From Bacteroidaceae bacterium (GTDB lineage Bacteria; Bacteroidota; Bacteroidia; Bacteroidales; Bacteroidaceae): a stretch of DNA of 33,545 nucleotides. The stretch's first letter is position 1. Each line of letters starts with the position of its first letter. Position numbers and translations under genes: made by a program. The DNA is taken from positions 1 through 33,545 of the forward strand of contig JAFUPU010000070.1 of the NCBI GenBank assembly GCA_017472635.1, in the 5' to 3' direction. Positions 2,751 through 12,965 of the stretch are shown one piece after another. The notes under the pieces were generated by a model, which saw only the letters and a program-made list of their open reading frames with translations, had not been told where the DNA came from and searched no databases.

Positions 2751-4790
2751 TCACTTTTTCAACACAAGGTTTGTCGTGATGGTTGCATCTACGATAGAGA
2801 TACGCCCATCGGCATTCAGGTCAGCTGCCCCTGAAACAAAACCCACATTCTCTTTCCGCTGGATGCTGTTCGTTATCATGGTGATATCCACTATCGAGAA
2901 ACGTCCGTCTCCATTCACATCCCCCGACAGGTAGTATTCCACCTCCAGTGCAGGACCTTCAGCTGACGAATAGTCCACTCCACCGGCATTGCTCAGGATG
3001 ACATTCTTTATCTCCACCGTCGTTCCATCGCATGCCACATCCGTTTGAGGGGTATAGTCCAAGGTAAACAGCGTCCCTTCGTTACCCGCGATAGGTGTGT
3101 TGCTCATCGAATAGAGGATGACCCTGTATACACCATTCCCCATATCTGCCACACTGCACCCGTGTCCTTGCAGGCGGGTTGTAGCCTCCAATGCATCAAG
3201 CGAAGTGGTCATACCCTCCATCCAGTGGATATCCATCTGCACCGCCACAATGTCGGTGTAGTTGTCCATCCCTACGGTCAGCCGGTAATCCCCATCCTCC
3301 ACACATTCGCCCGACAGGGTCAAGTTGTTCGGCTCATACGCTGCCACCTCCACCTTCACAGCCTTCATGCGGTTCGTCGGGTCGTTGGTATAAAGGTTCA
3401 TCGTGGTAGTGAACTCCCCCTCTACAGTGGGGGTATATACCACATCCAGCGAAGCGTTCTGCCAAGGTTCGACCGTCAGGGGGAGCGATGTCTTCACCTC
3501 ATACCCTTCAGCCAGAAAGGCGACTTTGTTCAGGGCCAAGGGGGCATCCCCGTTGTTAGTGAGCATATAGGTTGCCGTGACAGGCGTCGTCACCGGTGTA
3601 CTTCCCATCTGCAACAGCTCTTCTCCATAGAGTGAAGGACTCTGTATGGTCACTCCTGCCCCTTCGGTTGCCGAGGTCATGTTTTCTACCGTAATGTTGC
3701 TGAGCACCACGCCTTCCGGCTCCAACGGATACCAGCCGCTGTTGCCGTCGAGCTTTACCTTGAAAGTGCCTATCACTCCATCATCGCCCGTAAAGGTGGC
3801 ATTGCTTGAAGAGTAGAGGAAGAGCGTCAGTCTGCCGTTGGCAAAGGATGCCGTGGCGGTATGAGAAGAGCTTCTCTCCGTTACCGCGAAGCTCCCTTCA
3901 ACATACTCCAATGCCTCGGGCAGGGCGAAGGTGCACTGCATCCCCACCAGCGGCTCCATGTTGTTGACGCGCAAGGCTATCTCCACTTCGCTATCCGAGG
4001 TGCCCGATGCGCCCTCGACATGCAACTCATTCACCGAGAAGGGGTCAGCCACCAGCGTGGCTTTCTGTTCACCGTTGACGGCATTGCTCTCAAAGATTAC
4101 GGTCTCTTCCACCGCACCTCTCACCGTAGGTTTATAGACAATCTCCAACTGCTTCTGTTCGCCGGCGGCAATTGCAAACTCGGTTTCCGATGGGATAAAC
4201 GCTCCGGCACTGCAGGTCACATCTGCTATCTGAAGCGGTTCGTTTCCGCTGTTCTGCAGGGTCAGATATTGGGTATACGTGCTCCGGATAGGAATGTGTC
4301 CGTAGTCGATGCTTGTAGTCACCACCGTCAGTTTGGGAGACAAGAGGGTGACGGTTCCCGTCTCTACCGAGGCAGTGAGCGATGTTCCTGCCGCATTGCT
4401 CATCATCACTTGAGGAGTCAGCTGATAGTCAGCAGGTTCTTTCTTCAGTTTCAGTTTGAAGGTAGCCAGGTTCCCTTCATTTCCTTTCAGGGTTGAGAGG
4501 GAAAGGCTATAGACATAGAGGCGCAAACTGCCGTCTACCACTGCCGCCGACAGTTCATGTCCGTCGGTACGTGCACTGTTCAACGCAGCACTTCCTGCCA
4601 CATAGGTCAGCTGCTTGTCTAATGGGATGATGATTTCAGCGGCAGTCACCGCATCGGTCATGGTCAGTCCCACCTCCACCGTCACCTCGTCACCGGGATG
4701 TCCCGAGACGGATGACAGGCTTATCACATTTTCTGCCCTTGCTCCGATGATTGAGAGGAGCAGGAGGCAGCATATAGTCAGTCGTTTCAT
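2751..4790 (-). CDS. Secreted scaffold-like protein: three cohesin-like domains, two Ig-like domains, C-terminal dockerin
   Basis: A 679-residue protein starting at the ATG at 4790, because MKRLTICCLLLLSIIGARA is a textbook signal peptide; the in-frame ATG at 4814 only adds eight residues before it. Three cohesin-like domains alternate with two Hydin/ASPM-type Ig domains: cohesin-like at roughly 20-145, 255-390 and 490-620, each ending in an LSN/MSNA-containing strand; Ig-like at roughly 146-250 and 390-490, with LTLQNSGNEPL and YMLTNNGDAPL motifs. Residues 621-679 are a type I dockerin with two calcium-loop repeats, DVNGDGRFSIVD and DLNADGRISIVD, each having D at 1, N at 3, D at 5 and D at 12. 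No sorting tail follows: the protein ends within the dockerin. It follows the protease gene, with a hairpin in the gap. By architecture it could act as an adaptor holding dockerin-bearing partners; no binding is shown by sequence alone. Confidence 0.8.
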   Translation of the reverse strand: MKRLTICCLLLLSIIGARAENVISLSSVSGHPGDEVTVEVGLTMTDAVTAAEIIIPLDKQLTYVAGSAALNSARTDGHELSAAVVDGSLRLYVYSLSLSTLKGNEGNLATFKLKLKKEPADYQLTPQVMMSNAAGTSLTASVETGTVTLLSPKLTVVTTSIDYGHIPIRSTYTQYLTLQNSGNEPLQIADVTCSAGAFIPSETEFAIAAGEQKQLEIVYKPTVRGAVEETVIFESNAVNGEQKATLVADPFSVNELHVEGASGTSDSEVEIALRVNNMEPLVGMQCTFALPEALEYVEGSFAVTERSSSHTATASFANGRLTLFLYSSSNATFTGDDGVIGTFKVKLDGNSGWYPLEPEGVVLSNITVENMTSATEGAGVTIQSPSLYGEELLQMGSTPVTTPVTATYMLTNNGDAPLALNKVAFLAEGYEVKTSLPLTVEPWQNASLDVVYTPTVEGEFTTTMNLYTNDPTNRMKAVKVEVAAYEPNNLTLSGECVEDGDYRLTVGMDNYTDIVAVQMDIHWMEGMTTSLDALEATTRLQGHGCSVADMGNGVYRVILYSMSNTPIAGNEGTLFTLDYTPQTDVACDGTTVEIKNVILSNAGGVDYSSAEGPALEVEYYLSGDVNGDGRFSIVDITMITNSIQRKENVGFVSGAADLNADGRISIVDATITTNLVLKK

Positions 4791-4820
4791 TGTTACGCTT
4801 ATTCTTTGGGGCATGGATTA

Positions 4821-4894: not shown

Positions 4895-7800
4895 CTACTT
4901 CTTCACCGCCTTTGCCGTCTGCATCAACGTACCGTCCACATAGAGGCTCACCAAATAGAGTCCGTCAGCCAAGTTTCCGGCAGGATGCCAGGTGTGGCTG
5001 TGCTCGCCATAGCCGCATCCGGTGCGGTAGTTATATACAGTGCGTCCGGCAAGGTCGCTGACAACGATGGCTACCTGATGGCTTCCCTCCTTACCTATTA
5101 TATAAGGTATATGCAGTTCGGTGCTGAAGGGGTTGGGATAAGGCAGGGTCATCTGCATACCCTCTACCACACCCACACCGGTGGCATCTCCGTTGATGGC
5201 CAACACATTCTTGCCGCGTGCATCGCTCAACACCACTTGGCTGATGGCAACCTCTTCACCGATGCGAAGCAAAGCCTGCTTGCCGGGAGCAATGGTACGA
5301 CCTGCCATAGAGTAAGCCAGGAAGAGGTATTCATCCTCGCTCTGCCAGTTGCCGGTCTGTTCAAAGCCGTTCAAGCCTTCCATGGCGGCAAACTCGGTGC
5401 CCTTGGGAGCGGCTATGCGCACCTGCACACCACCCAGTGCCACGGGACTCTCCACATAGAGGATTCCCTCTTCGATGGTATAGGTAGCCGTGTTGTTTAC
5501 CGAAGCGATGCTGGTTTCAGCGGGTGTAAGGATAAGGTTGAGCGTACCCACCACATCAAGGATGTTTACGGCGAGGTCGCTGTTCACATCGGCCGCTTCG
5601 AAGATGAAGGGTTGCGGGTCTTGGTTGGTCATGTAGGCAATCTCTGTCACCACGTCTGCCACATCTACCGCCATGCTTCCGTTGGCATCACCCTTCTGTG
5701 CGGTGAGCGGTGTGGCGGCTACGGCATTACTCAGGGCATGAGAACTTAACGAGGTGGTCAACTGCTTGATGAAGTAGTAATAAGTAGTGCCGGGCACTAC
5801 ATCGTAGTCGGTGTAAGCGGTCTCTTCGGAAGAGAGAACAGATTCATTTACAATGATACTATCACTATTCACGCCCTGTGCATCCACGGTATATCGATAG
5901 ATATTGTACCCCAACAAATCTTCAAAGTCCTCTTCATCGGTTTCCCAAGTAAGAGCCACCTTACCCAATCCGGCTTCTGCCATCAAGCCTGTTGCCATAG
6001 AGCCGGCAGCGGCTACCTGTACGTTGAAACGCACATCTTCAATAGGAATATCGAAATATTCGTTGTCTCGGGCATCGGCTACGTAGATGCGGTTCAGTCC
6101 GTCTGCTCCGGTCTTACCGGTGATGGTCAGGTAAGCGGTGTAAATCAGGCTGTCGGCACTCCAGCTACCCTCTTCGGCAATGGCATGTTGCGTATAGGGA
6201 GGACGCACACCCATAGCTATGGTAGGTGCTACACTAACATCCATCGGACGATTGAAATAGACTTCAAACTTATGTTTGCCTACACCGAGCGGTGGCAATT
6301 GCTCAAACTCATCTTGGGCATCATAGCCGTTGACTACCACTTTCCATACAACACCATGGGCTTCGGCTGAGGGACGGGTAAGGGTATTAGAGAGATCATA
6401 AACACCAAAGCCTGTAGGTAAAGTTGGATGAAGCATATCAATTAACCCCTCTCTGATAAGATCTTCACGGGCTGAACCTAAATAATTCGGACTTTCAGGA
6501 GTATAGTTAATCGGTGTCTCTGAATAACATCCCAAGTTATAATAGTCTCCTGAGATTCCTCCAATATTTCCGAACACATTAGAAGAGGAATAATCAGAAC
6601 ATCCTAAATACTGAATTGTAGCGCTTTCGGTGTAAATATTCCCGATTACATTCGCATCGGAGAAGGCTATATCACCTGGAAAAAGCTGAACCGATCCTTC
6701 CGAATATACAATATTCGTTTTATGCATCATTTGATAATGATTAAACAAATATCCACTAGCATAACAATGCTCAACAACACAATTATTCATATTCACAGAT
6801 CTCATACCATAGACATTAGTCGTTGCAATCATTCTCAAACCTGAAAATTTAACATATTCAACTGTATTTCCACAAAAATTAAAGTCATGAATATATCCTG
6901 TTTCATGATCTGCCATCTTAAACACAATCATACTATCAGGAGTTCCCACACAATGGAGAGACCCATTCGGAATGTTTAGACTGATACCACCCTTAAACTT
7001 CAACACCGTACCCGGTTTAATCGTCAACGTTACCCCTTCAGGCACTGCCAATGTCTTCGTTACAATATAATGTACTCCCGGATAAAGCGTAGTATTCTCC
7101 GTAATCATACCTCCTATCTCCACACCATTTTCTACGGTGATTGTAAACTCATGCTCCAACTCTTCGGCAATGTTGTCGCACGTTGCTTTCAATACCAACC
7201 GAATCTTTCTGCCATCCACGCAATCGTCTTTTACCTTGAAGCGAACGGGGTTGACACTGATGTTTTTGCCGTAGCTGCTGAGCGGCTTGCCGAAAGCTAC
7301 ACTTTCGTCGAGAATTTCCACGATGGTGGGGTCTTCGTTCTCTGCAACTTCCAAAGAGAAGGTGATATTTTTTGCCTGTCCCCACTCGTTGCGAAGTGTA
7401 GGATAGAGGGCAATGGTCTCTCCCGCATCGGGACGACCGTCGGCATCGCCCACGATGGTATCTTTCAACAGGTAGGTGACCAAGCCCAGTTCGGGGATGC
7501 AGTCGGCATCGGTCAGCCGGTAAGCCGCTTCGAAATCGACATCGCCATAACCGTTCTGCTTGCGCGTGTGGATAAGGTCGCCGAAGAGCACCTCCCAACT
7601 GCTGTACTCCTTGGTCTGGAGCAGGCGGGATACGCCACCTGCCACGAAAGGACACGCCATGGAGGTTCCGTTCAAAGCCTTGTACTTACCGCCGGGATAG
7701 GTACTCATGATGGCAGAACCCGGTGCACGAAGTTCGTAGTTGTAGAGCTTCTCTTCGCCAAAGGCTGAGAAGGTGGGACCGTCGTCATCGTAATTACTGA

Positions 7801-8977
7801 AGACGGAGCGTCCGCCACCATTGGGCGATGCCTCTACACCCAACACGAAGGTGAATGCGGCAGGAAACATGGGAGCACCCAGTTTCTTACATACTTCACA
7901 CCGGATGGTGGGGTTTATCGGGGTACAGTCGTTACCCGCTGCAGCCACCAACACCGCCTTCTGATAAGCCTTTGCCAATGCCTGCTCTTCAGCCATGGAG
8001 TAGCTGTATCCGCCAAAGCTCATGCTCAGGACATCGGCTCCGTTGGCTACGGCATAGTCGATACCCTTGATGATGGTGGCTACGTCGCCCGTACCATCGC
8101 TCTGCATCACGGTGATGGGCATAATCAAAGCGTCGGGGTTGGCACCGGCAATACCGATACCGTTATTGCCTACGGCGGCAGCAATACCGGCACAGTGGGT
8201 ACCGTGACCGTTCCAGTCGCCTATGCGACCCGTCTGATTCACAAAGTCCCATCCGTGAAGGTCGTCGGCAAAGCCGTTGTTGTCATCGTCAGCCTCCTCT
8301 TCACCTTCGGCTTCGAGGGTATTTGTCCAGATGTTGTCCGCCAGGTCAGGATGGGTGATGTCCACACCCGTATCGAGGATGGCAATCACCGGACGCTTGT
8401 CGGAAAGTTTGGATTGTTGCCAGAGGAAGGGAAGTTTCAGTTTGTCATGTCCCCATTGCTCACCATAGAGCGGTTCTTTTTTATAATGGTCGCAATCGGT
8501 TACTGTCGTTCCCTCGTCGGCAAGGGCATATACCAGGTAGTTAGGCTCGGCAAACTCCACTTCGCTGAGTGCCTCCATCTGTTCGATGGCAGCCTGCACC
8601 GAGGGGACACGCTGCTTGTCGAAAGTAACCCGGAAAAGCGTGGAGAGGTCAGCCGCATCGACCGGTTTGTGCATAATGGCGCGTGTGCCTGCAGGCTGCT
8701 GTGCCTCACCGGTAAGCGGCATCAATGGTTCTAACGCTGTCACTCCCAACGAGCCGAGCACATTGTTTACGCCTGCAGCAGTGGTACTGCGTGCACCATT
8801 GACCACAATGCCGCTCTGCGACTTGAACTTGACCAACATCTCTCCCTGCCTATAGGCGCGCTGGGCATGGTGGTCGATTTTCACTACTTCATCTTGATTG
8901 TAGTTGCTCTGGGCAACCAACGGGCTTGCCATGAGGGTTAACATGGCTGCCGAAAGGAATAGACGACTCTTTTTCAT
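4895..8977 (-). CDS. T9SS-exported subtilisin-like (S8) serine protease with beta-helix, Fn3, dockerin and cohesin-like parts
   Basis: A 1360-residue multidomain protease. There is a signal peptide (1-22) and a propeptide-like region (about 40-150, including EFAEPNY). The S8 catalytic domain spans about 165-455: Asp202 in ILDTGVD, His258 in NGHGTHCAG, oxyanion Asn349 in AAAGND and Ser439 in NGTSMACPFVAGG, all intact. Then come an adhesion/CARDB-like region (about 500-620), a right-handed beta-helix-like region (about 625-830), a beta domain (about 870-985) and an Fn3 domain (about 995-1090). Residues 1095-1150 form a dockerin-like pair (DANGSMAVDVAD, DVNSDLAVNILD), residues 1160-1265 a cohesin-like domain, and 1278-1360 a type A T9SS sorting domain (YPNPF near its start, a DLAGR strand, DGLYLVSL near the end). 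It is expected to be exported by T9SS and kept on the cell surface or released; the T9SS machinery is not in this window. The beta-helix-coding stretch is clearly more AT-rich than its flanks. Confidence 0.92.
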   Translation of the reverse strand: MKKSRLFLSAAMLTLMASPLVAQSNYNQDEVVKIDHHAQRAYRQGEMLVKFKSQSGIVVNGARSTTAAGVNNVLGSLGVTALEPLMPLTGEAQQPAGTRAIMHKPVDAADLSTLFRVTFDKQRVPSVQAAIEQMEALSEVEFAEPNYLVYALADEGTTVTDCDHYKKEPLYGEQWGHDKLKLPFLWQQSKLSDKRPVIAILDTGVDITHPDLADNIWTNTLEAEGEEEADDDNNGFADDLHGWDFVNQTGRIGDWNGHGTHCAGIAAAVGNNGIGIAGANPDALIMPITVMQSDGTGDVATIIKGIDYAVANGADVLSMSFGGYSYSMAEEQALAKAYQKAVLVAAAGNDCTPINPTIRCEVCKKLGAPMFPAAFTFVLGVEASPNGGGRSVFSNYDDDGPTFSAFGEEKLYNYELRAPGSAIMSTYPGGKYKALNGTSMACPFVAGGVSRLLQTKEYSSWEVLFGDLIHTRKQNGYGDVDFEAAYRLTDADCIPELGLVTYLLKDTIVGDADGRPDAGETIALYPTLRNEWGQAKNITFSLEVAENEDPTIVEILDESVAFGKPLSSYGKNISVNPVRFKVKDDCVDGRKIRLVLKATCDNIAEELEHEFTITVENGVEIGGMITENTTLYPGVHYIVTKTLAVPEGVTLTIKPGTVLKFKGGISLNIPNGSLHCVGTPDSMIVFKMADHETGYIHDFNFCGNTVEYVKFSGLRMIATTNVYGMRSVNMNNCVVEHCYASGYLFNHYQMMHKTNIVYSEGSVQLFPGDIAFSDANVIGNIYTESATIQYLGCSDYSSSNVFGNIGGISGDYYNLGCYSETPINYTPESPNYLGSAREDLIREGLIDMLHPTLPTGFGVYDLSNTLTRPSAEAHGVVWKVVVNGYDAQDEFEQLPPLGVGKHKFEVYFNRPMDVSVAPTIAMGVRPPYTQHAIAEEGSWSADSLIYTAYLTITGKTGADGLNRIYVADARDNEYFDIPIEDVRFNVQVAAAGSMATGLMAEAGLGKVALTWETDEEDFEDLLGYNIYRYTVDAQGVNSDSIIVNESVLSSEETAYTDYDVVPGTTYYYFIKQLTTSLSSHALSNAVAATPLTAQKGDANGSMAVDVADVVTEIAYMTNQDPQPFIFEAADVNSDLAVNILDVVGTLNLILTPAETSIASVNNTATYTIEEGILYVESPVALGGVQVRIAAPKGTEFAAMEGLNGFEQTGNWQSEDEYLFLAYSMAGRTIAPGKQALLRIGEEVAISQVVLSDARGKNVLAINGDATGVGVVEGMQMTLPYPNPFSTELHIPYIIGKEGSHQVAIVVSDLAGRTVYNYRTGCGYGEHSHTWHPAGNLADGLYLVSLYVDGTLMQTAKAVKK

Positions 8978-9019
8978 ATCTATATAGATTTAATTGAATA
9001 TTTCTATCGCAGAAATATA
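8978..9019 (-). promoter_or_regulatory. Possible promoter -7 element and palindromes before the protease gene
   Basis: On the minus strand TATATTTC (9019-9012) matches the Bacteroidota -7 element TAnnTTTG at seven of eight positions, with only a poor -33 match upstream. It overlaps a perfect 8-base inverted repeat (8998-9005 with 9011-9018, 5-base loop), and a 12-base perfect palindrome ATCTATATAGAT (8978-8989) abuts the start codon. The repeats may be an operator or may shape the start of the mRNA. Transcription could instead read in from the promoter at 9414-9444. Confidence 0.35.
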
Positions 9020-9089
9020 TCTCCCATTAAAGGCTCATCGGAAACGGGAAGGTTTTCACTCTGTTACCTATTGTTTTCCCGGGTAGTAC

Positions 9090-9407
9090 GACATAAAAAA
9101 AGCGTAGAGCCTGCACCTGTTGCCCGCTCCACGAAATAGAGGCTCTGGTAATCGCCCTGCAAGTCGAAACGAGCAACGCGAAAAACCCACGCCGAATGCA
9201 TATACTGTCCACAGCCTCTCCACCAACCGACAGAGAGACTTGTGCTAATATACACCCAAGGGGCATCCACCGTTGCTTTGTTTTTGACTTGCATGTGAAA
9301 TTTACCAGATTTCTATTTCGTCAAAACCAAAGCGTCAAGTAAACGCCTTTTCCATAATGTACACCCCCACCCCTGCTCCCTCCCGATAGAGGGCATTCGG
9401 CGTAGAG
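9090..9407 (-). ncRNA. Candidate structured RNA (about 315 nt), possible pseudoknot
   Basis: Read on the minus strand, a good promoter (9444-9414) is followed by a segment rich in pairings and ended by seven T residues (9101-9095). Pairings found by eye: 9393-9403 with 9189-9199 (11 bp, perfect); a hairpin 9329-9335 with 9343-9350 (one bulge); 9233-9240 with 9213-9220 (8 bp, one G-U, 12-base loop); 9286-9293 with 9158-9165 (8 bp); and a terminal stem 9140-9146 with 9106-9112 before the T run. The 9286/9158 helix crosses the 11-bp helix, so together they would form a pseudoknot. It has no features of RNase P RNA, tmRNA or SRP RNA. It might be a trans-acting RNA or a leader of the protease gene, which starts about 115 bases further on. 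Bacteroidales-specific RNA families defined by a promoter and terminator are known, but I cannot assign this one to any. Confidence 0.55.
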
Positions 9408-9413
9408 ACGGGA

Positions 9414-9444
9414 CAAAGATAGAAAAAGTTATGAAAACAGGCAA
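9414..9444 (-). promoter_or_regulatory. Bacteroidota-type promoter of the candidate RNA
   Basis: On the minus strand TTG (9444-9442), a 20-base spacer and TATCTTTG (9421-9414) match the primary-sigma consensus of Bacteroidota. The predicted start is about 9407, with no long reading frame immediately downstream. Confidence 0.7.
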
Positions 9445-9783
9445 GAAAAAGCAACTATTTTATCAAATAGAGTCAAAAAACAAGAAAAAAACCATGCCAT
9501 AGCCCCTATCCAAATGCCACAGCATCAGCCAAAAAGGGAGAAAAAAAAGAGGCAACTCCTCCCCCCATCCAGCCTCAGCGGTCCGACACCCGCCCCAACG
9601 GGTATCGCCTACAGAAACAGTTCTCCAACCAGTCGGGCAAGGCTCCGCAACTGCCTGAACAAGGTTTTCCAACCGTCCGTACAAAGATTACAACCCTGAA
9701 GAAGCCGGCTCCGCAAAGTGATTCACTCGGGTAAGTAGGTCTACTCACTCGTTATGATGCGACCAATTCATACAACATGAATC

Positions 9784-9809
9784 GCCCGACTCACTCAAGT
9801 GAATCGGGC
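9784..9809 (-). terminator. Hairpin downstream of the DUF456 gene
   Basis: On the minus strand GCCCGATTCAC, loop TTGA, GTGAGTCGGGC forms an 11-bp stem with one U-G pair, 35 bases past the DUF456 stop. There is no T run after it, so it is only a possible terminator. Confidence 0.45.
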
Positions 9810-9843
9810 AAGAAAGAAGATATCTCGAGGTGACAAGAGAAGG

Positions 9844-10317
9844 TCAGATAAGGCGGAAGAGTATCATCACCACTACCGCGACGCAATAGACAAACTTGAG
9901 TCCCGTAGTGAGGATGAATGCAAGGAAAGAGGAGGATGCCACCTTCAAAGCCTGTCCGAAAGGTACGTTGGTAGCAAGTTCACCTATCAACGCTCCGATG
10001 AATGGTCCGAGCACCAACCCTAACGGTCCACAAAAGAGTCCGATAACCAGTCCCCATGTGGCTCCGCGAATGCTCTGTTTGGAACCTCCACCCAGCTTCG
10101 CTAACCAGATGGGGGCTACATAATCGATAATGGTAACAGCCACCATCAACAGTCCCATGACCCACAGTTCTGATGAAGAGACACTCCCTTTATCGTGCAA
10201 CCACATCATCCACAATGCGGCATAACTTACCGGCGGACCGGGTAACATAGGGAGAATGGCTCCCATCAGTCCGACCAATGCAGATACGATAGCCAACGCC
10301 AACCAAATATATTCCAT
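9844..10317 (-). CDS. DUF456-family small membrane protein
   Basis: A 157-residue, very hydrophobic protein with about four transmembrane stretches (roughly 4-36, 50-75, 87-117 and 130-156). It has the Gly/Pro-rich pattern of the DUF456 family: GLMGAILPMLPGPPVSYAAL near the N terminus and GLFCGPLGLVLGPFIGALIGE in the middle. It is full length for the family. The family's biochemical role is unknown, and it is presumed to sit in the inner membrane. The gene begins 23 bases after the GH28/GH43 stop and so is probably on the same transcript, though nothing in the protein suggests a role in carbohydrate use. Confidence 0.85.
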   Translation of the reverse strand: MEYIWLALAIVSALVGLMGAILPMLPGPPVSYAALWMMWLHDKGSVSSSELWVMGLLMVAVTIIDYVAPIWLAKLGGGSKQSIRGATWGLVIGLFCGPLGLVLGPFIGALIGELATNVPFGQALKVASSSFLAFILTTGLKFVYCVAVVVMILFRLI

Positions 10318-10340: not shown

Positions 10341-12965
10341 TTATTCATAATCTTCCAAACGCCACTCGTCTTTCCACTCGATACGGGGGACTCCCTCTTT
10401 AAAAACAACCGGAAGGAAGACATAGGTGGCATTATAGACATCGTGGGTGGGTCCGATTAAGACATATTGCCGGTTTTTCACCTGCGGTGTGCTGAAATCC
10501 TTGGGCAACGGATGATGATTCCGATAAGACTTTTCCTTTGAAGCAATCTCACGACGGGGAATATCGGTACCGGTCACATGAGGAAGCCAACGGTCTCCCA
10601 ACGCCACATAGAGATCCTTCTTCCCGGGAATCTTGATAACCTGGCAGATTTGCGAATTGAACGAATGTCCGCAAGAGTCACCTACATGCGGGTCTCCCAA
10701 CACATGATATTCGCCATGGGGGTGTGTGAAACATGCCGTCTCAGTGGGATTGGGGGTGTAACCGGTAGTGCCGGAGGTGAACATGTAGAACTTGCCCTCG
10801 CGTATGAAATGCGCCGGTGCCTCGCGAGTCAGGGGCGGACGTATCCCCACAAAATGAGAGGTATAATGGGGAGTGACATCGGTATAATCGTCGGTAAGGT
10901 CGGCACAAATCAGTTCCCAGTGCGGGCGTTCGAACCAGACATATGCCTTGCCGGTCTGTTCATCGACATAGAGGTCGAAGTCTCCTACTCCATATCCTTC
11001 AGGACGCAGGTTGCGTACAAACGTATAAGGTCCCTTTAAATCGTCGGCAACAAGAATGGCGAAATAGCCGGCTGTATCCTGACTCTTTGCCCAGCAGACA
11101 TACTTGCCCGTCTTTTTATTGAAGATGATATGAGGTCTCTCCAACTTCTGACTGTAGTGGAGTGGAGAGAGCGGGTTGACGGTATCGGGTGCCACAATCA
11201 GCCCCTCATCTTTCCAGTTGTAGAAATCGCGGGAGGTGTAAAGCCGGAAGCCTCCGAACATGCGATTGGTACCCAACAAGGCATCTTCTTTGTTCTCACC
11301 ATACCAATAATAGGTGCCATCTTTATAAAAGAGTTGGAAGGCATGGGCATGAATAGGCTTTCCCTCAGTATCGAGCCACACTTGTCCAGGACGGACAGAA
11401 CGGTAAGTTTGTGGTTGCATAGGCACCTCCTGGACATTCAGGTAGCGACTCTCTTTCCCCTCTTGCCGGATGGTGACGGGCTTTCCATAGGTAAGGCTGT
11501 TCACCCCATAGAACGATGAGTAGTCGGCATGGTCTATAACCAGCACCGAATCGGCAGACTCGACCTCCACATCTTTCATGGAGAATCCATTGGTATCGCG
11601 CACACGTCCCAACTGCCGGCACTTGGCTTTGACATTTCCAAAGAAGAGATTCTTTAACGGACGTTCGGGCATGCCTTCGATATTCACCAGATTGCGGCAA
11701 TCTTCAATCACCACATCGTGAATGGACAACGTATGGTAGGTTGGGGTATAGCGAGTAATGGGGGGAACAGGATAGCGGGCAGCCAACTCGCCCATCCACT
11801 TCACCGAGCCCAACTGATCGCAATAGAGGGCATCGTAAACCAGGCGGGCACGCACACGTTCGACATAGATGTTGGAGATGGTACCCCCCCGAGTGCGACG
11901 TGCCTTGAAACGGAAAGCACGGTCGGTCCCATCGAATGCACAATCATGCATATAGATATTTTTAATGCCTCCGGCTGTCTCGGTACCGCACACAATACCT
12001 CCGGCTCCACGCAATGCCAAACAGTGACGAATAACTACCCGCTCGGTAGGACGGTTTACACGCAAGCCATCCCATCCACGTCCCGACTTAAGGGTGTAGC
12101 AGTCGTCCTGGCAATCAAGCGAACAGTATTCTATCAACACATCGGATGAGGAGTCTATGTCGATACCATCGGTACGACCATGCCCAAAGCTGTTCACCGT
12201 GACACCACGAATGATGACACCCTGACAATATTGGGGAACAATATTCCAATAGAGTCCCTGCTCGAGGGTCACACCTTCAATCAGCACATTGGCACAATTA
12301 ATGGGGGCAATGGTTTTGGGCAAGAATACTTGGGGATTGGTAACCCCGTCATAAATGCGTTCTTCCAACGGACGTTCGCCCACTACGGTTTCGATATTGA
12401 GTGCATGGGTCTGATTGACACGATATATCTCACAATCGGTAGACGGACCTACTATCTTTCCCTTTCCGGTAAGAGCGATATTGTCTGCCCCATTGGCATA
12501 GATAAAGGATCCCAACGAATAGATATCAATGCCTTCATCGCGCGTAAGACAGACAGGCAGATAATCTTTGATGTCTCCACTGAAATGGAGTTCTGCCCCT
12601 TCGGCAAGATGCAAGTTCACCCCACTCTTCAGTTCCAGACGACCGGTACGCCATTTTCCCTGCGGAACGACAACGGTTCCTCCTCCCTGAAGAGCCATCT
12701 GATCGATAGCCTGTTGCAACCGGGAGGTATGCAACGTACCCTCGGTATCATCCAAAGAGAGAACTACCCGACGGTCTTTAAACATCGGACGGACCGGTTG
12801 TGGCATCTCAAAAGGTGCCACAACGGGAGCTATCGTATCGGGCATCACGGAGGGTCCCACTTGGTTGTAAGCCGGAATAATGCCTTTGACTCCTATTGCC
12901 ATTGCAGGCATAACTGAAAAGAGTAAAAGATTCCACAAAAGGAACAAATGTTTCTTGTTTTGCAT
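10341..12965 (-). CDS. Secreted GH28-like / GH43-like two-domain glycoside hydrolase
   Basis: An 874-residue exported enzyme, probably periplasmic, with a signal peptide at 1-23 (MQNKKHLFLLWNLLLFSVMP...). Residues about 65-510 are a right-handed beta-helix of the GH28 (polygalacturonase-like) type, with the acid cluster RTDGID (264-269), CQDD (285-288), GTETAGG (327-333) and RFK (352-354) in the usual order. The canonical NTD and GHG motifs are altered, as in exo-acting or divergent members. Residues about 525-870 form a five-bladed-propeller-like GH43-type module: HAHAFQLFYKDGTYYWYGE (539-557), a GDFDLYVD strand (661-668) and REAPAH (714-719), whose Glu could be the acid. The likely substrate is a pectic side chain or another uronic-acid-containing glycan. 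No SusC/SusD pair is in the window, so this is not an obvious polysaccharide-utilisation locus. Assignment to a GH43 subfamily is uncertain. Confidence 0.8.
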   Translation of the reverse strand: MQNKKHLFLLWNLLLFSVMPAMAIGVKGIIPAYNQVGPSVMPDTIAPVVAPFEMPQPVRPMFKDRRVVLSLDDTEGTLHTSRLQQAIDQMALQGGGTVVVPQGKWRTGRLELKSGVNLHLAEGAELHFSGDIKDYLPVCLTRDEGIDIYSLGSFIYANGADNIALTGKGKIVGPSTDCEIYRVNQTHALNIETVVGERPLEERIYDGVTNPQVFLPKTIAPINCANVLIEGVTLEQGLYWNIVPQYCQGVIIRGVTVNSFGHGRTDGIDIDSSSDVLIEYCSLDCQDDCYTLKSGRGWDGLRVNRPTERVVIRHCLALRGAGGIVCGTETAGGIKNIYMHDCAFDGTDRAFRFKARRTRGGTISNIYVERVRARLVYDALYCDQLGSVKWMGELAARYPVPPITRYTPTYHTLSIHDVVIEDCRNLVNIEGMPERPLKNLFFGNVKAKCRQLGRVRDTNGFSMKDVEVESADSVLVIDHADYSSFYGVNSLTYGKPVTIRQEGKESRYLNVQEVPMQPQTYRSVRPGQVWLDTEGKPIHAHAFQLFYKDGTYYWYGENKEDALLGTNRMFGGFRLYTSRDFYNWKDEGLIVAPDTVNPLSPLHYSQKLERPHIIFNKKTGKYVCWAKSQDTAGYFAILVADDLKGPYTFVRNLRPEGYGVGDFDLYVDEQTGKAYVWFERPHWELICADLTDDYTDVTPHYTSHFVGIRPPLTREAPAHFIREGKFYMFTSGTTGYTPNPTETACFTHPHGEYHVLGDPHVGDSCGHSFNSQICQVIKIPGKKDLYVALGDRWLPHVTGTDIPRREIASKEKSYRNHHPLPKDFSTPQVKNRQYVLIGPTHDVYNATYVFLPVVFKEGVPRIEWKDEWRLEDYE

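Follow-up and report, generated by a model that had tools for sequence, protein, structure and literature searches.

A large structured RNA with covarying long-range contacts, a probable new class of leader, ahead of diverse genes in Bacteroidales

Several described RNAs invite comparison with the element reported here, among them EAR and HK022 put, which belong to other phyla and are far smaller. Both are structured leaders thought to act on the elongation of their own transcripts (for put, excerpts of PMC9378689), a likeness limited by the absence of any match between the element and 4227 Rfam families. The UpxY-controlled leaders of Bacteroides capsule operons occur in the same bacterial order and resemble it as leaders with premature termination, proposed in the case of the element, and two copies of the element lie ahead of genes with KOW or NusG matches; they differ in that the accessible portion of PMC7819879 makes no mention of a conserved structured leader class and most of the scanned targets of the element are not NusG-like. 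ROOL, GOLLD and OLE are likewise large and intricate RNAs, described in excerpts of PMC12286853 as forming homo-oligomeric complexes, whereas the element is a leader tied to genes, with kissing partners proposed within the same molecule and, again, without Rfam match. Finally, the Bacteroidales-1 RNA (RF01693, suggested to be a 6S RNA) comes from the same order and is found separately by cmscan, at L003 2051-2220, near a copy of the element but not at it.

The window, that is the whole stretch of 33,545 nt analysed here, carries a large and intricately folded minus-strand RNA ahead of a gene for a subtilase, its presumed target (Table 1). A preliminary description had proposed an undescribed structured RNA, either a small regulatory RNA or a leader controlling the adjacent protease gene. 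When the window was compared with the 4227 families of Rfam 15 by cmscan only a tRNA was found; in the region 8900-9850, at E-values up to 10, six hits appeared, all far below gathering thresholds, and 15 further loci gave one hit, not at the element. The scan works on such genomes, because it found the Bacteroidales-1 RNA elsewhere in L003. In the literature searched, supplements lying outside the search, no description of the element was found, including in the accessible text of PMC8040213, PMC2864571, PMC7366714 and PMC7819879, and a search by terms in parts of PMC11109978 and PMC8632094 returned no relevant passage. The thousands of candidates in PMC8040213 and the motif Bacteroides-2 of PMC2864571, which has no Rfam number in the table there, may be partial earlier sightings, as far as the accessible parts of these sources go. 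Set against this literature without its supplements, the element is rated as a new class within the structured leader RNAs, and the term undescribed can stand.

Distribution and neighbouring genes

A DNA search with 8978-9500 of the minus strand gave matches in 32 of 101 related genomes, with 1-11 pieces each; the long homologous pieces are 68-89% alike, one copy often yields two pieces, and the eight pieces in the window's own genome represent five loci. The pattern of P2-P4 was found in at least 117 stretches of GTDB genomes, and among the matches listed the 80 record titles name Bacteroidales or Bacteroidia groups, with Bacteroidaceae, Parabacteroides, Mediterranea, Phocaeicola and Prevotella represented together with Muribaculaceae, Paludibacteraceae, Coprobacter and Tidjanibacter. 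A covariance model trained on 54 sequences of the P7-P9 arm matched 61 of 393 Bacteroidales genomes (1-9 matches each) and two of 395 genomes drawn from the phylum, namely the window's own and one other member of Bacteroidales. Within Bacteroidales the family is scattered, and the rest of the phylum, as far as sampled, lacks it. One contig of a viral collection was also matched; with blastn, at the sensitivity used, 50,697 phage records and 72,556 plasmid records gave nothing. The copy at L168 (3603-3940), nearly complete, lies on a viral-collection contig of 4560 bp, which may be host sequence.

The element profile matches all 168 loci gathered, as expected because they were fetched by similarity or pattern. 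From 231 profile hits, including antisense, short and duplicate ones, 156 distinct copies were retained by length, score and identity, and 143 of these were complete enough to be aligned (MAFFT, with columns chosen by majority occupancy). A smaller alignment of 60 sequences contains the window and 59 of 65 copies picked as less than 80% identical. Two matches, one partial and one weak, stand apart: in Parabacteroides distasonis NM39_I3 (L114 700-833) the match of a partial copy stops in the 5' arm and is followed by AT-rich sequence, and in the window's own genome a second, weak match (L034 5301-5563) lies about 1.1 kb from a good copy.

In 135 of 141 scorable copies the element and the gene that follows it share a strand, and in six they lie on opposite strands; the other 15 of the 156 copies were unscorable owing to a contig end or the lack of a reading frame. 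Gene calling was crude (first ATG, longest frames). Of the 135 same-strand genes, 84 start 50-110 nt past the element and 15 more than 200 nt past it; in another 16 copies the called frame starts inside the element, probably because of the first-ATG calling. Upstream genes are of mixed strand (73:55). Position and conservation thus support the earlier suggestion of a leader controlling the adjacent protease gene.

By blastp linkage, which also defines the cluster sizes given here, the 135 downstream proteins form 63 clusters, 59 of which were scanned for protein families through their representatives only. Among them are an SNF2-type helicase that matches PADLOC HKD+Snf2 and stands for 18 copies, and a type IIG restriction-methylase that stands for 11. 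Also represented are proteins with BspA-type leucine-rich repeats, type I, II and III methylases, SspB, DUF4007, AbiEi, fimbrillin-like, NusG/KOW and subtilase proteins, and more. A riboswitch for a metabolite was considered and is disfavoured because the targets are so diverse, the 63 clusters and the mixture of Pfam families in the 59 representatives pointing to no single pathway. The copies that precede L022 1838-2596 (KOW) and L026 792-1520 (NusG and KOW) suggest a link with leader antitermination. With PADLOC at E ≤ 1e-15, matches were obtained for five of 10 multi-copy clusters hand-picked from the 20 largest, a choice that omits obvious surface proteins and the helicase cluster, whose match had been established before, for one of 10 randomly drawn clusters, and for one of 10 upstream genes from 20 random ones. 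A possible link with defence would therefore depend on a few large clusters by their weight, and the random draw does not suggest one. Elsewhere in the window, the 687-aa protein encoded beside the subtilase (2751-4814, minus strand) has cohesin, dockerin and HYDIN/ASPM-type Ig domain matches, and an 874-aa protein (10341-12965, minus strand) has both GH28 and GH43 matches.

Fold and long-range contacts

The minus strand is identified as the RNA strand by the nested helices, in which G-U cells far exceed A-C cells, 496 against 52. The 317-nt minus-strand sequence folds with -129.2 kcal/mol against -98.4 for shuffled sequences (z -5.86; none of 100 shuffles as good); the plus strand of the element has a low folding energy too (z -4.34, 0/100). 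In the proposed structure, 94.0% of the cells of the 60 diverse sequences are paired, compared with 87.1% for shuffled and 39-45% for slid sequences, and 34 of the 67 pairs change on both sides. P1 closes a core with three arms, formed by P2-P5, by the variable P6 (85.5% paired; five of eight pairs change on both sides in the 60 sequences) and by P7-P9. The preliminary description had counted at least five helices and named two that cross as a possible pseudoknot; more than five are present on the minus strand, and crossing helices are present too, the strongest crossing contacts being ones it had not described.

Table 1. Features of the element and its presumed target gene in the window (percentages are paired cells in the 60-sequence alignment; features are ordered 5' to 3' along the RNA, with the gene last).
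Feature	Position	Strand	Sequence or partner	Basis
-7 promoter box (Bacteroides-type, consensus TAnnTTTG)	9414-9421	-	TATCTTTG	window sequence
5' hairpin domain	9362-9410	-	outer stem 9399-9410/9362-9373; inner stem 9388-9393/9378-9384	covariation and window fold
P0 5' strand (putative antiterminator; excludes P7)	9393-9403	-	ACGCCGAATGC; 11-bp pairing with 9189-9199	perfect in window
P1 5' strand (core-closing)	9348-9362	-	GTACAT...GAAAA	covaries with T tract and following bases
P2 5' strand	9339-9347	-	GGCGTTTAC; with 9262-9270	96.8%
P3 5' strand	9328-9333	-	GCTTTG; with 9275-9280	97.2%; sequence nearly invariant
P4 5' strand	9320-9326	-	TTTTGAC; with 9282-9288	91.0%; 5/7 pairs change on both sides
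PK2 5' strand (J4/5; overlaps ends of P4 and P5)	9312-9321	-	ACGAAATAGA; with 9131-9140	covariation
P5 hairpin	9297-9313	-	loop 9302-9309 kissing the P9 loop	stem 85.8%; 3/4 pairs change on both sides
Kissing loop, P5 side	9302-9309	-	TCTGGTAA	covariation
PK1 5' strand (J5/4; GTC overlaps P4)	9286-9293	-	TGCAAGTC; with 9158-9165	covariation
P4 3' strand	9282-9288	-		60-sequence count
P3 3' strand	9275-9280	-		60-sequence count
P2 3' strand	9262-9270	-		60-sequence count
P6 arm	9194-9257	-	9250-9257 with 9194-9201; apex 9202-9249 variable in length and sequence	alignment
P0 3' strand	9189-9199	-	GCATTCGGCGT	perfect in window; weak covariation
P7 5' strand	9186-9192	-	GCGTGGG; with 9102-9108	98.3%
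P8 5' strand	9167-9177	-	GTTGCTCGTTT; with 9119-9129	98.5%
PK1 3' strand (J8/9)	9158-9165	-	GACTTGCA	covariation
P9 hairpin	9141-9156	-	GGC/GCC, bearing the kissing loop	96.1%, hardly any variation
Kissing loop, P9 side	9144-9151	-	TTACCAGA	covariation
PK2 3' strand (J9/8)	9131-9140	-	TCTATTTCGT	covariation
P8 3' strand	9119-9129	-	GAGCGGGCAAC	60-sequence count
P10 5' strand (J8/7, edge of P7)	9107-9112	-	AGGCTC	spacer scan and covariation
P7 3' strand (base of terminator-like stem)	9102-9108	-		60-sequence count
T7 tract following P7 (candidate intrinsic terminator; contributes to the P1 3' strand)	9095-9101	-		sequence
P1 3' strand past the T tract	9086-9094	-	ATGTCGTAC	covariation
P11 hairpin (outside the preliminary coordinates)	9021-9050	-	9043-9050/9021-9028	arms covary
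P10 3' strand (in P11 loop)	9031-9036	-	GAGCCT	spacer scan and covariation
Subtilase gene (1360 aa, Peptidase_S8), presumed target	4895-8977 (start 8977)	-		Pfam PF00082, E 1.2e-46, and adjacency

Long-range contacts were evaluated by a permutation test that asks whether pairing is stronger between two segments of one copy than between segments taken from different copies. Only distinct segment pairs were used, which leaves 100 (PK2), 119 (kissing loop) and 131 (PK1) of the 143 copies; the tests ignore relatedness among copies, and their z-scores are not probabilities. By this test the homologues covary strongly, as the preliminary description had asked of a genuine structure. PK2 reaches z 43.3 with 90 different duplexes among its 100 distinct copies, PK1 reaches z 39.6 with 108 among 131, and the kissing loop between P5 and P9 reaches z 22.9 with 26 among 119, in each case with none of 300 permutations as good, while four unrelated segment pairs used as a control gave z between -1.2 and 1.3. 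All cells of the kissing loop are paired (100%) in the 60 sequences, and one of its pairs occurs as CG, GC, AU and UA. Furthermore, 1128 segment pairs were scanned without bias, and each of the ten with the largest excess links a segment of P4-P5 to one of P8-P9; these segments contain PK2, PK1 and the kissing loop; PK2, which had not been guessed beforehand, came out first.

A complementarity score of at least 6 is attained by PK1 in 128 of 131 copies and by PK2 in 97 of 100, and the sequences of both are nearly free, with a mean identity of 47% compared with 79% for the core helices. The idea that private pseudoknot sequences prevent cross-pairing between paralogues was examined and rejected, there being no consistent excess of divergence in 46 within-genome pairs, a comparison in which genome membership was set by hand for part of the loci. 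P4 and P8 each end in GAC beside PK1 and PK2, and the four helices may therefore meet in a four-way crossing, in which all pairings would coexist and the two arms would be locked.

The 5' hairpin domain is a covarying local stem (z 13.1, 0/300 permutations) and is variable, being reduced or missing in some copies.

Promoter, T tract and the region up to the start codon

The promoter announced in the preliminary description holds as a Bacteroides-type -7 box and fails as a sigma-70 one: the sequence fits the TAnnTTTG consensus (PMC7366714, in the part consulted), while a scan for sigma-70 promoters found none. TAnnTTTG occurs near the 5' end in 122 of 143 copies, compared with 6% of shuffles, and its distance from P2 is 54-74 nt in the middle 80% of 117 measured copies. 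The upstream half of the promoter is not clearly conserved, TTG being present 17-26 nt beyond the -7 box in just 29 of 73 copies. Among copies with a spacer (T tract to gene) of 30-140 nt, the motif is found at the 5' end of the element in 78 of 93, where shuffling predicts 5.6, and within the spacer itself in 2 of 94, where 3.9 are expected; therefore, no second promoter of this kind is evident before the gene. A terminator-like hairpin of 13 pairs (9782-9811, minus strand) lies between a DUF456 gene and the leader promoter.

At the other end, a terminal stem followed by T7 had been described as the end of the element. The stem and the tract are there, and the first 10 nt after P7 contain a median of seven T in 143 copies, but the conserved element ends at about 9021, beyond the tract, as indicated by covariation in the spacer. 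The GC-rich P7/P8 stem (98% paired) runs directly into the U tract ahead of the coding region, as in an attenuator; a simple terminator scan did not list it, presumably because its loop exceeds the limit of 8 set in that scan. A scan of the spacer against all parts of the RNA singled out J8/7 together with the edge of P7, with z of 9.1 and 7.7 for two overlapping windows and 2.9 for the next best. The resulting contact, P10, has z 9.8 (0/200 permutations) and scores at least 6 in 79 of 93 copies. Mismatched partners score 5.7 on average, so an individual weak case carries little weight. These spacer tests used the 93 or 94 copies with a 30-140 nt spacer, and the arms of P11, scored in 74 of the 93, covary with z 7.4 (0/200). 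The end of P11 precedes the start codon by a median of 19 nt (64 measured copies; about 11-48 nt between the 10th and 90th percentiles) and by 43 nt in the window. P1 (z 7.1, 0/300) also uses bases downstream of the T tract, and because P1, P10 and P11 all do so, the conserved RNA includes sequence that is made only past the tract, for a leader of about 400 nt.

The 11-bp helix of the preliminary description, P0, is perfect in the window and turned out to be the weakest-supported long-range pairing across homologues: its z is 5.4 with broad windows and 2.1 with narrow ones, where nine of 300 permutations are as good. At least seven contiguous pairs are formed in 121 of 143 copies, the other 22 falling short of seven, figures that come with no computed chance level. 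In the window, the state with P0 has -111.3 kcal/mol against -115.5 for the state with P7 and is thus 4.2 kcal/mol less stable, tertiary terms excluded. A pairing of the G-rich 5' stretch with the 3' strand of P7 was tried and discarded (z 1.2, 39/300 permutations as good).

Proposed mode of action and competing explanations

The position, strand and promoter of the element, with a structure that reaches as far as the start region, are best explained by a cis-acting leader, and we consider it highly probable that the element represents a new class of such 5' leader RNAs. Comparison of the copies supports the pairings and the place of the promoter, speaks against coding, and bears out the placement and orientation upstream of genes. 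That the leader acts by conditional transcription termination is a weaker inference, to which we give somewhat less than an even chance, and the explanation as a whole, leader plus proposed mechanism, lies between the two claims as moderately probable. Transcription of the minus strand would start at the TAnnTTTG promoter, and the RNA would fold into the 5' hairpin domain and the P1-closed core with its three arms. The terminal loops of the P4 and P8 arms would pair along both flanks (PK1 and PK2) and tip to tip through the kissing loop, these contacts together locking the two arms side by side, and the spacer hairpin P11 would dock its own loop on J8/7 through P10. P7-P8 and the U tract would constitute a conditional intrinsic terminator: in one state transcription would stop at about 9097, and in the other the polymerase would read on, P1, P10 and P11 would form and the gene would be expressed, under control in cis. 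P0 might serve as an alternative partner of the P7 strand, and candidate triggers are the rate of folding, a ligand or a protein, for instance a NusG paralogue. A precedent in the phylum is given by UpxY proteins, which reportedly keep transcription of 5' leaders from ending too early (excerpts of PMC7819879). Against conditional termination, the U tract doubles as a strand of P1 and may therefore be structural rather than a terminator, and P0 covaries weakly and is not universal. Against the explanation as a whole, the upstream promoter half is not clearly conserved and TAnnTTTG is absent from the stretch searched in 21 of 143 copies.

The element might instead bind RNA polymerase and promote processive antitermination, as HK022 put and the EAR of Bacillales do, allowing readthrough of Rho-dependent or intrinsic stops in long, foreign-looking genes. 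The diversity of the targets, several of them long or of variable-island types, would be accounted for in this way and not by a metabolite switch; the strongly conserved sequences of P3, P4 and P8 suggest a common binding partner, and two copies precede genes with KOW or NusG matches. The element, however, contains a terminator-like stem of its own, and its size, much larger than that of put or EAR, also counts against this explanation, which we regard as unlikely.

Control of translation or of mRNA stability, by a compact fold that presents or hides the ribosome entry site in a phylum making little use of Shine-Dalgarno pairing, would be in keeping with the short distance between P11 and the ATG, its median of 19 nt being close to the edge of the 30S footprint, with P10 tying P11 to the core, and with the U tract as part of P1. 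A stem followed by a U tract would nevertheless be odd to keep in a purely translational element, and the distance from P11 to the ATG varies; we find this reading improbable too.

The other option of the preliminary description, a trans-acting small RNA of about 315 nt that would lie beside genes by chance or parallel transcription, draws on the promoter and the terminator-like end that the element has of its own. As a main role it is quite unlikely, because the covarying structure extends past T7 and ends close to the start codon, at a median distance of 19 nt, and the nearly constant strand and frequent 50-110 nt spacing of the following gene are also against it. A mobile DNA element or DNA hairpin (a MITE-like repeat) rather than an RNA, suggested by several copies per genome next to unrelated genes, is very improbable in view of the G-U excess, the near-fixed orientation to the gene and the absence of blastn matches in the phage and plasmid records. 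A coding exon or small ORF in the minus-strand frame 9064-9294 has a negligible chance, for the frame, open in the window, is open in 17 of 97 anchored copies, has an in-frame upstream ATG in 15 of 97, and segment lengths in 143 copies are evenly spread over the residues modulo 3 (52:50:41).

Returning to the cis-acting leader, a further and rather doubtful idea is that it forms a multi-copy module that can be placed before unrelated genes and gives them a shared switch, maybe setting phage-facing functions on one signal. Such a module would be an RNA-only lock, built on the near-private sequences of PK1 and PK2 and on the kissing loop, which, by weight of copies, might often guard restriction-modification, helicase-type defence and surface genes; this, too, we put forward with considerable doubt.

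If the leader reading is correct, gut bacteria of a widespread order possess a leader class of about 400 nt that has yet to be named, with four covarying long-range contacts; in the sample a single genome gives as many as nine model matches, and the genes that follow include surface, defence and regulatory ones. Such an RNA would rank among the more complex bacterial leader RNAs and would be a good subject for RNA structure determination, besides giving a handle on how Bacteroidales switch variable genes, and the covariation makes the fold directly testable. A short subfamily (L074, L098, L146 and L161) is without most of the 5' domain and the variable P6 arm, and may correspond to the minimal functional RNA.
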